Assembly: GCF_000504285.1 (NCBI RefSeq)
Contig: NZ_KI632511.1
Span: 5,500,154-5,564,153 of the forward strand
Origin: Actinospica robiniae DSM 44927
GTDB lineage: Bacteria > Actinomycetota > Actinomycetes > Streptomycetales > Catenulisporaceae
Direction: 5' to 3'
Length of the DNA stretch: 64,000 nt
Below are positions 39,172-43,336 of this stretch, one piece after another. Within the stretch, counting starts at the first letter, position 1. Every line of letters starts with the position of its first letter. The position numbers were made by a program, and so were the translations under genes. The notes under the pieces were generated by a model that had not been told where the DNA came from, ran no database searches, and worked only from the letters and a program-made list of their open reading frames with translations.

Positions 39172-42039
39172 GTGGCCGACACCGCCGCCGTCCCCAGTCC
39201 GCCTTCGGCGCCGCCGCCCGCGCCCGACGCCGCCCTGCGCGGAGACATCAAAGCCCTGGGAGAGCTGCTCGGCCGCACGCTGGTGCGGCAGGAGGGCGAG
39301 TACCTGTTCGACCTGGTCGAGCAGATCAGGGCACTGACCCGGTCGGCGGACGCCGGCGCGGCGGACGAGGCGCAGGCCAGGCTGGCCGAGATCGACCTGG
39401 GCACGGCCATCCGGCTGGTGCGCGCGTTCTCCAGCTACTTCTACCTGGCGAACGTGACCGAGCAGGTGCACCGCGCCCGCGAGCTGCACGGCGAGCGGGC
39501 CACCACCGGCTCCTGGCTCTCCCGCGCGGTCGAGCGGATCGGCGCGGCGATCGAGGACCCCGAGTCCAAGGTGACCAGGGACTGGGTCGAGGAGGTCATC
39601 TCCCGGCTCTCGGTGCGCCCGGTCTTCACCGCGCACCCGACCGAGGCGGCCCGCCGGACCATACTCGGCAAGCTGCGCCAGATCGCCCTGCTGCTCGACG
39701 CCAACCCGTTCCCGCAGCCGGGCACGCCGGTGGACCCGGTGGCCCAGCGGCGCGCCTCGCGCCGGCTGGAGGAGCTGGTCGAGTCGCTCTGGCAGACCGA
39801 CGAGCTGCGGGTGACCCGGCCGGAGCCGACCGACGAGGCCCGCAACGCCCTGTACTACCTGGACGAGCTGCACTCCGGCGCGGTGCCGGACGTGCTCGAC
39901 GAGCTCGCCGCCGAGCTCGAGCGGATCGGCGTGCGGCTGCCGGTGGACGCGCGGCCGCTGAGCTTCGGCAGCTGGATCGGCGGCGACCGGGACGGCAACC
40001 CGAACGTCACCCCGACGCTGACCCTGGAGATCCTCGGCCTGCAGCACGAGCGGGCCATCGACGACGCGCTCAAGCTGGTCGAGGGCCTGCGCTCGACCCT
40101 GTCCACCTCGAAGCGGATCGCCCGGGTCACCCCGGAGCTCGAGGAGTCGCTCGCCCGGGATCTCGAGGCCCTGCCGGACATTCCGGCCCGGTACCGGCGG
40201 CAGAACCTGGAGGAGCCCTACCGGCTCAAGGCCACCTGCATCCGGGAGAAGCTGCTCAACACCCGCAAGCGGATCGCGGAGGCGCGCCCGCACGTGCCCG
40301 GGCAGGACTATCTCAACGGCGAAGAGCTGGTGGCCGACCTGCTGCTGATGCGCGAGTCGCTGCTGGCGGACCGGGGCGAGCTGATCGCCCGCGGCAGCCT
40401 GGACCAGGTGATCCGTACCATTTCGGCCTTCGGCCTGCAGCTGGCCACCCTGGACGTGCGCGAGCACGCGGACGCGCACCACCACGCCGTCGGCCAGCTG
40501 ATCGACCGGCTCGGCGGAGAGGCCTGGCGCTACGACGACATGCCGCGCGACTACCGGGCCGGGCTGCTGGCCAAGGAGCTGCGCTCGCGCCGGCCGCTGG
40601 CGAAGCTGCCGGAGCGCGCGCACCGGCAGGGCATCGAGGGCTTCGACGCCTGGGGCGGGGCCACCCCGCTGCTCGACGACGCCGGGGCGAAGACCTTCGG
40701 CATCTTCACCGCGATCAAGGAGACGATCGACCGCTTCGGTCCGGACGTCATCGAGAGCTACATCATCTCGATGTGCCGCGGGGTGGACGACGTGTACGCG
40801 GCGGTGCTGCTGGCCCGCGAGGCGGGCCTGATCGACCTGCGCGGCGGCCGGGCCGCGATCGGCTTCGTGCCGCTGCTGGAGATGGTCGAGGAGCTGCGCC
40901 AGGCCGACACCATCCTCAACGACCTGCTCAACGACCCGTCCTACCGCAAGCTGGTGCGGCTGCGCGGGGACGTGCAGGAGGTCATGCTCGGCTACAGCGA
41001 CTCGAACAAGTCGGCCGGCATCACCACCAGCCAGTGGGAGATCCACCTCGCCCAGCGCAAGCTGCGCGACGTGGCGCACCGGCACGGCGTACGGCTGCGG
41101 CTCTTCCACGGCCGCGGCGGCACGGTGGGCCGCGGCGGCGGTCCGACCCACGAGGCGATCATGGCGCAGCCGTGGGGCACGCTCGAGGGCGAGATCAAGG
41201 TCACCGAGCAGGGCGAGGTGATCTCGGACAAGTACGCGCTGCCGAGCCTGGCCCGGGAGAACCTGGAGCTGACCGTCGCGGCCACGCTGGAGGCCTCGGT
41301 GCTGCACCTGGGCCCGCGGCAGAGCACGGACGCGCTGGCCCGCTGGACGGCGACGATGAGCGGGATCTCGGACGCGGCGTTCGCCACGTACCGGGACCTG
41401 GTCGACGACCCGGACCTGCCCCGCTACTTCCTGGCCTCGACGCCGGTGGACCAGCTGGGCGACCTGCACCTGGGCTCGCGCCCGTCGCGCCGGCCGGACT
41501 CGGGCGCGGGGCTCGAGGGCCTGCGGGCGATCCCGTGGGTGTTCGGCTGGACCCAGTCGCGCCAGATCGTGCCGGGCTGGTTCGGCGTGGGCACCGGCCT
41601 GGCCTGGGCGTACGAGGCCGGGCACGCGGACGTGCTGCAGGAGATGTACGAGGACTGGCACTTCTTCCGCAACTTCCTGTCGAACGTCGCGATGACGCTG
41701 GCGAAGACGGACCTGCGGATCGCCCGGCTGTACGTGGAGCAGCTGGTGCCGGAGCACCTGCGGCACGTGTTCGACCGCATCGTCGAGGAGCACGAGCTGA
41801 CGGTGCAGCAGGTGCTCAAGGTGACCGGGCAGAGCGAGCTGCTGGGCACCGACCCGGTGCTGGCCCGCACGCTGCAGGTGCGCGACCGGTACCTCGACCC
41901 GATCTCCTACCTGCAGGTGGCGCTGCTCAAGCGGCACCGCGAGGCGGTGGCGGCCGGCGAGGAGCCGGATTCGCAGCTGAGCCGGGCGCTGCTGCTGACG
42001 GTCAACGGCGTGGCGGCGGGTCTGCGCAACACCGGCTGA
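39172..42039 (+). CDS. ppc: Phosphoenolpyruvate carboxylase
   Basis: Makes oxaloacetate from PEP and bicarbonate, refilling the TCA cycle. The 955-residue protein has both catalytic signatures: [18 protein letters not shown] with the essential His, and [20 protein letters not shown] with the essential Lys; the mobile loop [19 protein letters not shown] is intact. The C-terminus ends NTG after an [11 protein letters not shown] helix. The start is GTG 39172 with GAGGAG 9 bases upstream. It stands alone and ends at a strong terminator before a gap filled with DnaA boxes. Confidence 0.97.
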
Positions 42040-42060
42040 GTCCGGCGCCCCGAACCATCG

Positions 42061-42093
42061 TGTGCCCGGCACCCCGTATGGGTGCCGGGCACA
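42061..42093 (+). terminator. Terminator of ppc
   Basis: Perfect 14-base arms (42061-42074 and 42080-42093) with loop CGTAT, 21 bases after the ppc stop. It separates ppc transcription from the DnaA-box cluster. Confidence 0.85.
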
Positions 42094-42193
42094 CGGGCGT
42101 GTGGGGCCGGATGCGTGGCGGCTGGGGGTGGGGCGTCGCGGGGCCTGGCCGCGCAGCGCCGATAGCCGGGCGGATGCAGCGCGCTACACCGAG

Positions 42194-42428
42194 TTATCCA
42201 CAGCGCCAGCCGGTTATCCACAGGATCCACAGATCTTGTCCACGGTGTGTATAAATCCTGTGGATAACCCGGTCGCGTGCCCCCGGTCTGGCGTAACGAA
42301 ATGGACTCGCTTGGGGAAAACTCCGGCGGACCGGGCTGTGGATAACCACTTTCCACCGGGTTCGCCGGGGCTCGCCTGGGGACAACTCCGGACAAGGCGC
42401 ACCAGTTCCCGGATCCGCCTGTGGATCG
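42194..42428. other. Cluster of DnaA boxes outside oriC
   Basis: Four exact TTATCCACA boxes: 42194-42202 and 42214-42222 on plus, 42259-42267 and 42337-42345 on minus. Near matches: GGATCCACA at 42223 and TTGTCCACG at 42236 (plus), TGGGGACAA at 42377 and TGTGGATCG at 42420 (read as minus-strand boxes). The left four point right and the right four point left, an inverted cluster. It lies in the 430-base gap between convergent ppc and purU, where no promoter is needed. dnaA and dnaN are not here, so it is not oriC. A datA-like DnaA-titration or replication-control site is the likeliest reading. A further exact TTGTCCACA lies at 42891 inside purU. Confidence 0.8.
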
Positions 42429-42469
42429 GCGGCGGGTGTGTTAAGGGCGCCGGATCACGCCGGATTACG

Positions 42470-43336
42470 TTAGGAGAAGACCACCGTACGGCGCGAGTTG
42501 AGCAGCACCCGGTGCTCGGCGTGCCAGCCGACGGCGCGGGAGAGCACCCGGCACTCCACGTCCCGGCCGGCCGCGACCAGCTGATCCGGCGTCATGCCGT
42601 GGCCCACCCGGGCCACGTCCTGTTCGATGATCGGGCCCTCGTCCAGATCCGCCGTCACATAATGCGCGGTCGCGCCGATCAGCTTCACGCCGCGCTCGTG
42701 CGCCTGGTGGTAGGGCTTGGCGCCCTTGAACGACGGCAGGAACGAGTGGTGGATGTTGATGATCCGGCCCTCGAGCGCCTTGCACACGTCGTTGGAGAGC
42801 ACCTGCATGTAGCGGGCCAGCACCACCAGCTCGATCCGGTGCTCGGCCACCAGCTCGAGCAGGCGCGCCTCCTGCGCCGCCTTGTTCTCCTTGTCCACAG
42901 GCAGGTGGACGAACTCGATCCCGTAGGACTCGACCAGGGTGCGGAAGTCGGTGTGGTTGGAGACGACGAACGGGATGGTGACCGGCAGCGCGCCGATGCT
43001 GTGCCGGAACAGCAGGTCGTTGAGGCAGTGGCCGAACTTCGAGACCATGATCACCATCGGCATGTGCGTCGCCGCCTGGTGGATCTGCCACTGCATGTGG
43101 AACGACGCGCCGGTCGCCGCGAACCCGTTGGACAGCGTGGTCAGGTCCACGCCCGGCTCCTGCGCCCGGAAGTGCACCCGCATGAAGAAGACCCCGGTGT
43201 CCGGGTCGCCGTACTGCTGGCTGTCCACGATCGTGCATCCGGTCACGAGCAGGAAGCTGGCCACGGCGTGCACGATGCCCCGTTGGTCGGGGCACGACAA
43301 GGTCAGGATGTAGTCGGCGGACGCGTCCTCAGTCAT
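42470..43336 (-). CDS. purU: Formyltetrahydrofolate deformylase
   Basis: Cleaves 10-formyltetrahydrofolate to formate and tetrahydrofolate, balancing the one-carbon pool for purine synthesis. In 288 residues it carries an N-terminal ACT domain (YILTLSCPDQRGIVHAVASFL) and a formyltransferase domain with the catalytic Asn-His pair in IINIHHSFLPSFKGAKPYHQA and the Asp in ATAHYVTADLDEGPIIEQD. The start ATG 43336 has a -10 box 6 bases upstream and no ribosome-binding site. It is convergent with ppc; the gap between them holds the DnaA boxes. Confidence 0.95.
   Translation of the reverse strand: MTEDASADYILTLSCPDQRGIVHAVASFLLVTGCTIVDSQQYGDPDTGVFFMRVHFRAQEPGVDLTTLSNGFAATGASFHMQWQIHQAATHMPMVIMVSKFGHCLNDLLFRHSIGALPVTIPFVVSNHTDFRTLVESYGIEFVHLPVDKENKAAQEARLLELVAEHRIELVVLARYMQVLSNDVCKALEGRIINIHHSFLPSFKGAKPYHQAHERGVKLIGATAHYVTADLDEGPIIEQDVARVGHGMTPDQLVAAGRDVECRVLSRAVGWHAEHRVLLNSRRTVVFS

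Follow-up and report, generated by a model that had tools for sequence, protein, structure and literature searches.

Clusters of DnaA boxes outside the replication origin have reportedly been described in Streptomyces coelicolor by Smulczyk-Krawczyszyn et al. in 2006, and oriC-proximal DnaA-box clusters in Bacillus subtilis are said to have been described by Okumura et al. in 2012. The S. coelicolor clusters carry names that we take to be those of cosmids (D78, H24, and H69), and presumably D78 is the pheA-serS site, H69 the crgA site, and H24 the dnaB site. In Escherichia coli, DARS1 is located between bioD and uvrB. Filamentous actinobacteria, in which the timing of initiation is poorly understood, have to our knowledge neither the Hda nor the SeqA system of E. 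coli. Passages of PMC5742627, PMC4585315, and PMC10950094 state that the S. coelicolor and B. subtilis clusters repress untimely initiation in the manner of E. coli datA. According to passages of the review PMC5742627, datA is thought to lower initiation, and its minimal form consists of boxes 2, 3, and 7 plus an IHF site. Passages of PMC11317965 locate DARS2 by mutH and state that E. coli DnaA in vivo favors boxes that are 2 to 3 bp apart.

Here, we followed up a sequence-only reading of 64,000 nucleotides of an Actinospica chromosome (the window, bases 5500154 to 5564153 of a single-contig genome of 9,918,887 bp, or 9.92 Mb), which had proposed that an inverted cluster of DnaA boxes between ppc and purU is a titration or timing site. 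The comparison covered 14 genomes of family f1, comprising Actinospica (the host, G000, with G001 and G002), its sister genus g3 (G004), and Catenulispora (g2), together with 26 genomes of f2, which are inferred to be Streptomycetaceae (Streptomyces-like), and one of f3. Coordinates of the gap and its flanking genes are those of the window, and seven-digit coordinates are those of the genome named.

DnaA boxes in the gap between ppc and purU

The gap (42040 to 42469, 430 bp) lies between the 3' ends of two genes. The gene for phosphoenolpyruvate carboxylase, ppc, occupies 39172 to 42039 on the plus strand (NCBIfam NF000584, 906 bits; Pfam PF00311), and that for formyltetrahydrofolate deformylase, purU, occupies 42470 to 43336 on the minus strand (NCBIfam NF004684, 423 bits; TIGR00655). 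The NCBIfam profiles agree with the names first given to these genes, and the stops at 42039 (plus strand) and 42470 (minus strand) make the gap convergent, as had been read. The statement that dnaA and dnaN are missing from the window also held, as both (TIGR00362 and TIGR00663) lie about 406 kb off. Directly after the ppc stop, an inverted repeat at 42047 to 42107 forms a strong hairpin (minimum free energy, -57.5 kcal/mol; z, -6.0), which is a probable terminator setting ppc apart from the boxes; a similar hairpin follows ppc in G001. An Rfam scan of the gap gave eight matches, all under the gathering score, and seven of them overlay this hairpin, so the gap was ruled out as a structured RNA. 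DnaA is a transcription regulator in E. coli, according to the abstract of PMC11317965, and the boxes might by this token serve to control ppc, purU, or a transcript of the gap that is not annotated. However, no Rfam family reached its gathering score, and promoter control is unlikely because both genes end in the gap, with the strong hairpin behind ppc; we thus regard transcriptional control as highly unlikely.

Measured against the consensus TTRTCCACA, the gap held four exact boxes, all TTATCCACA, three boxes with one mismatch, and four with two mismatches. The four exact boxes had been counted correctly, while the variants, first given as four, were three of the one-mismatch and four of the two-mismatch kind. 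Likewise, four plus-strand boxes do lie at the left, but the minus-strand boxes at the right number seven rather than four when up to two mismatches are allowed, and the strand changes at about 42245. The plus-strand group begins with exact boxes at 42194 to 42202 (identical in G001 and G002) and at 42214 to 42222 (TTATCCCCA in G002). The second of these is abutted by a weak box, GGATCCACA, at 42223 to 42231 (two mismatches; invariant in the three Actinospica genomes), and the group ends with the nonconsensus box TTGTCCACG at 42236 to 42244 (one mismatch), which was the same in all four cluster-bearing genomes. Opposed to the latter, with 1 bp between, stands the first minus-strand box, TTATACACA, at 42246 to 42254 (one mismatch), and it forms a tandem with an exact TTATCCACA box at 42259 to 42267 (13 bp start to start, 4 bp between the boxes). 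Further along the minus strand are a weak box, TTTTCCCCA, at 42312 to 42320 (two mismatches), an exact TTATCCACA box at 42337 to 42345, and a one-mismatch box, TTGTCCCCA, at 42377 to 42385; the first and the last of these three lie in a 24-nucleotide direct repeat, TTGTCCCCA in its second copy. Two weak boxes with two mismatches each complete the series, TTGTCCGGA at 42387 to 42395 and CGATCCACA at 42420 to 42428, the latter being doubtful and situated where the gap, toward its end, is poorly conserved. Two-mismatch boxes, of which the whole window held 104, four of them in the gap, are weak evidence when taken alone. A further exact box at 42891, which had been listed as the ninth, does lie inside the purU coding sequence and was kept in G001, but it had no counterpart in G002 or G004. 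Nothing therefore supports a function for this box, and it was rejected as a member of the cluster.

Rarity of the cluster and its position relative to oriC

The window contained five exact boxes versus 0.11 expected, and five were reached in none of 100 shuffles. Genome-wide, there were 39 exact matches to TTRTCCACA versus 14 to the reversed control pattern. Four of the 39 sit within 152 bp at the ppc-purU gap, and when 39 sites were placed at random 20000 times, four of them never fell within 160 bp; as in other extra-origin clusters, several consensus boxes lie outside oriC, far above chance. We also scored stretches of about 250 bp in the 1.162 Mb around oriC, with an exact box counting as 1 and a one-mismatch box as 0.4. 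The ppc-purU cluster, at 5.2, was the top stretch, oriC included. Next came two stretches at 3.2, the crgA cluster and one on the dnaA-rpmH side of oriC, and then two at 2.6, the dnaB cluster and one on the dnaN-dnaA side of oriC; the maximum in five order-1 Markov sequences of the same length was 1.0. Beyond the 1.16 Mb around oriC, the ranking was made genome-wide on exact boxes alone, so that a group of imperfect boxes there may have gone unnoticed. At this scope (exact boxes genome-wide, boxes with up to one mismatch in 1.16 Mb), equal clusters were not many, and the scan thus did not refute the sequence-only reading.

The dnaN and dnaA genes, with their boxes, are at about 5948541 to 5950854, and the crgA and dnaB clusters are 17 kb and 42 kb from oriC, respectively. 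As a whole, oriC has 12 boxes with up to one mismatch, four of them exact, spread over 2.3 kb. The ppc-purU cluster packs the same number of exact boxes into less sequence, and the highest AT content of any of its 25-mers (60%) matches that of the dnaN-dnaA region, as might be expected of a second or relic replication origin. However, the AT-rich stretch consists mostly of boxes, the part of the cluster outside boxes is 74% GC, the noisy minimum of the cumulative GC skew (within 1.16 Mb) falls near oriC rather than the cluster, and dnaA, dnaN, and most parS-like sites are at 5.95 Mb. A second origin was thus rejected on skew, composition, and neighborhood, and we hold it to be extremely improbable.

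Within 1 Mb of oriC lie 26 of the 39 exact boxes: 4 in oriC, 21 on the side of the window, and 1 on the other side. With 21 of the 22 boxes outside oriC on one side, a role in chromosome structure or segregation can be considered, in which DnaA or another protein would organize the oriC-side arm at this place; the conserved nonbox sequence at about 42282 to 42302 may also bind something else. Against this, no parS-like site with up to two mismatches was found near the cluster. The parS-like sites in the 1.16 Mb were at 5953626 to 5956019, beside oriC, and in a pair at 5190130 and 5190166. A parS centromere at the cluster was therefore rejected, and a structural role is, in our view, very unlikely. 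The two sites of the pair at 5190130 and 5190166 are 36 bp apart and about 760 kb from oriC.

Conservation among related genomes

Boxes within 700 bp downstream of purU were found in 4 of the 41 genomes, the host included. The carriers were the three Actinospica genomes, with seven or eight boxes of up to one mismatch, and G004, with four. The other 37 genomes (10 of Catenulispora, 1 of f3, and 26 of f2) had no boxes in the 700 bp searched, although one contig counted as boxless (L049) stops after 279 bp. In G001, G002, and G004, the other neighbor of the cluster was again ppc. From the ppc side, 30 of the 41 loci were extracted, and the cluster was present in the same four genomes only, while six others had one to three scattered boxes (one exact); among the remaining 11, the locus of G003 alone was inspected and had no box. 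The gap is thus conserved in Actinospica and the sister genus (4/4) and not beyond (0/37), which likewise does not refute the sequence-only reading, and the absence of the cluster at ppc-purU from 37 of 41 genomes indicates that it is not a universal need.

The boxes are the best-conserved part of the gap in the three Actinospica genomes. Identical columns made up 78/90 in ten boxes, compared with 60/116 between boxes and 22/224 in the rest of the gap (Fisher P of about 1e-7 and 1e-36, respectively), the last figure being low largely because sequence is missing in G002. When ungapped columns and boxes of up to one mismatch were counted, the values were 57/63 for boxes, 81/136 for the cluster elsewhere, and 22/72 for the rest of the gap. 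In these counts the boxes were defined from the host sequence, which slightly favors them. The positions of boxes in G004 were taken from box scans, as the gap alignment puts them wrongly. A nonbox stretch within the cluster, at about 42282 to 42302, was also conserved in the three Actinospica genomes and is a possible site for another protein.

Extra-origin clusters at crgA, dnaB, and serS

Clusters after crgA and before dnaB recurred in both main families (serS, pheA, dnaB, rplI, and dnaN were named by NCBIfam and crgA by Pfam). At least three boxes with up to one mismatch were present within 500 bp in 39 of the 40 genomes with a crgA locus; the exception was the f3 genome (G015), and G012 had no crgA match. 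The crgA cluster of the host, at 5932343 to 5932434 (L001, 10344 to 10435), lies in a convergent gap between crgA and a rhomboid-protease gene match. Upstream of dnaB, all 30 loci had at least three boxes, as did G004 (31 of the 41 genomes covered). Within f2, the cluster after crgA was seen in 26/26 genomes and that before dnaB in 22/22 examined. Additionally, the 800 bp before serS contained at least four boxes in 26/26 f2 genomes, for example at 4406103 to 4406414 in G014 (L189, 6104 to 6415), and boxes in this interval were found in 0/14 f1 genomes, the host included, and in 0/1 of f3. The third cluster thus varies by lineage, being located at serS in f2 and at ppc-purU in Actinospica and g3. 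An assignment of double box pairs in f2 to oriC proved wrong, their neighbors being pheA and serS, and an f2 cluster about 107 kb from pheA-serS was dropped as the known strong cluster, as it is the crgA cluster.

Three side observations were made on these genomes. In the three genomes inspected, Catenulispora has a box group of its own near nitroreductase and SpoIIE-type phosphatase genes (G003, 110973 to 111002, L185; G006, L194; G009, L195), perhaps the counterpart of the third cluster. In three genera, a tandem DnaA-box pair directly precedes a response-regulator gene (G000, 5045201 to 5045226, L003; G003, L187; G004, L202) and possibly marks a DnaA-regulated two-component system. The DnaB matches listed for G004, G005, G008, G010, G012, G013, G015, and G019 cover only half of the query sequence, roughly residues 250 to 481, and in G004 both halves of the query match, about 1 kb apart; these half-length matches suggest intein-like inserts.

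Box geometry and the three-box module

In the three Actinospica genomes, the ppc-purU cluster contains a module of one box (42214 in the host), a second that starts 22 bp further along (42236), and a third that faces the second at a distance of 10 bp (42246). The same module, with 20 to 21 bp between the first two boxes, was present in the crgA clusters of 13/13 f1 genomes having the crgA locus. It is oriented along crgA in three of them (Actinospica) and in reverse in ten (G004 and Catenulispora), so the three boxes may not share a common descent. The 10-bp opposed pair occurred in 0/27 crgA loci outside f1, and the module in 0/30 serS loci and 0/31 dnaB loci. Within the 1.162 Mb of the host, pair and module were confined to ppc-purU and crgA. 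The G004 ppc-purU cluster had no 10-bp pair and showed 12 bp instead.

The core of the cluster is one box opposed to a tandem pair, with start-to-start spacings of 10/13 in the three Actinospica genomes and 12/13 in G004. The DARS1 and DARS2 cores of E. coli MG1655, measured here with two mismatches allowed, were both 14/12, and the opposed box deviated from the consensus at its last base in the three Actinospica genomes, G004, DARS1, and DARS2. The locus might accordingly be imagined as an active DnaA-nucleotide switch, in which the opposed box and the tandem pair would release ADP, as at DARS, or hydrolyze ATP, as at datA. The core has the DARS topology (at 10/13 or 12/13), and its spacing and nonconsensus box are conserved; a pure sponge would not account for the maintained spacings or the maintained imperfect TTGTCCACG box, and an active role is therefore the main rival explanation. 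We nevertheless consider a nucleotide switch unlikely. By our own reckoning, random three-box orientation sets give this topology in one of four cases, and the rplI-dnaB cluster, at 14/11, is closer to the DARS spacing. The 14/12 spacing is absent from ppc-purU, and DARS1 and DARS2 share their spacing according to a passage of the review (PMC5742627), which also gives minimal datA an IHF site and makes ADP dissociation at DARS2 dependent on IHF and Fis sites.

The trio with near-DARS spacing in the rplI-dnaB gap lies at 5907016 to 5907190 in the host (L006, 5017 to 5190; relatives, L333 to L362 and L382). Upstream of dnaB, a 14-bp opposed pair was found in 29/31 loci, and the tandem third box at 11 bp was found in 9/9 f1 loci examined and in one f2 locus (two mismatches allowed). 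Such a 14-bp pair was found once more in the 1.16 Mb of the host, in oriC, and is thus no hallmark of DARS-like sites. For the trio itself, a DARS-like function in actinobacteria and control of a dnaB promoter by DnaA are both conceivable. One could further envisage that, in f1, a specific three-box DnaA complex forms at crgA and ppc-purU and, with the dnaB trio, constitutes an actinobacterial control system that would switch the nucleotide state of DnaA instead of only titrating the protein and whose third locus would have been swapped between lineages (pheA-serS versus ppc-purU), a scenario that we judge improbable.

Discussion

We consider it fairly probable that the gap is a noncoding, predicted DnaA-binding locus that limits initiation as a titration site or brake. 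The titration or timing site first suggested remains the best reading, argued from position, conservation, and analogy, and the locus probably represents a known type of bacterial braking or timing device at a new place. We observed directly the boxes themselves and their arrangement, how rare such boxes are elsewhere and how well these are conserved, their position between two gene ends, and their distance from oriC. The boxes strongly suggest that DnaA would bind here, and an effect of this binding on initiation is suggested by the analogous clusters of S. coelicolor and B. subtilis and by datA of E. coli. Under this reading, DnaA would load onto the exact boxes first and then spread cooperatively across the conserved core (42190 to about 42310), so that bound initiator would be kept away from oriC. 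Since the locus would be replicated later than oriC, copying it would add further strong boxes to the competition for DnaA and thereby help to prevent early reinitiation. The convergent gap behind the hairpin may shield the DnaA complex from transcription; datA was inhibited when moved into a highly transcribed region, according to a passage of PMC5742627. A supporting point for such a brake is that the crgA cluster is also convergent and has the same three-box module, and a counterpoint is that the ppc-purU cluster, about 406 kb from oriC, lies beyond the crgA and dnaB clusters. As oriC has more boxes (12, 4 of them exact), the ppc-purU share of DnaA may be modest.

In the open-licence literature, we found no precedent for the ppc-purU place, the lineage turnover, or the shared module, no DnaA boxes in Actinospica or Catenulispora among the matches listed, and no paper on D78 with DnaA boxes in Streptomyces or on crgA, dnaB, or serS box clusters. 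The kind of locus itself is known. A strong cluster that moves between lineages beside two fixed ones is a natural experiment, which asks whether selection keeps the dose of strong boxes, the distance to oriC, or the geometry. Additionally, with the DARS-like dnaB trio and the module common to two gaps, an active role of such sites in Gram-positive bacteria can be put directly to the test.

Compared with known systems, ppc-purU differs from oriC in having neither the dnaA/dnaN neighborhood nor the skew minimum. The arrangement of the E. coli DARS core, with box I opposed to tandem boxes II and III, is found at ppc-purU, but at 10/13 in three genomes and 12/13 in one instead of 14/12. Like E. 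coli datA, which has an IHF site between DnaA boxes 2 and 3, the locus is an intergenic DnaA-box locus outside oriC; the datA stretch of MG1655 that we scanned has four boxes (two mismatches allowed) over 250 bp, three of them on one strand. The B. subtilis clusters are comparable by the repression of untimely initiation stated in passages of PMC5742627 and PMC4585315. Unlike the Streptomyces pheA-serS cluster, the locus is at ppc-purU, about 406 kb from oriC, mostly TTATCCACA, and in a convergent gap, and the two do not share a place, as the f2 genomes are without boxes downstream of purU. Like the S. coelicolor clusters, it is a dense group of DnaA boxes that lies outside oriC yet in the chromosomal neighborhood of the origin, and the places of the crgA and dnaB clusters are common to the f2 genomes and Actinospica.
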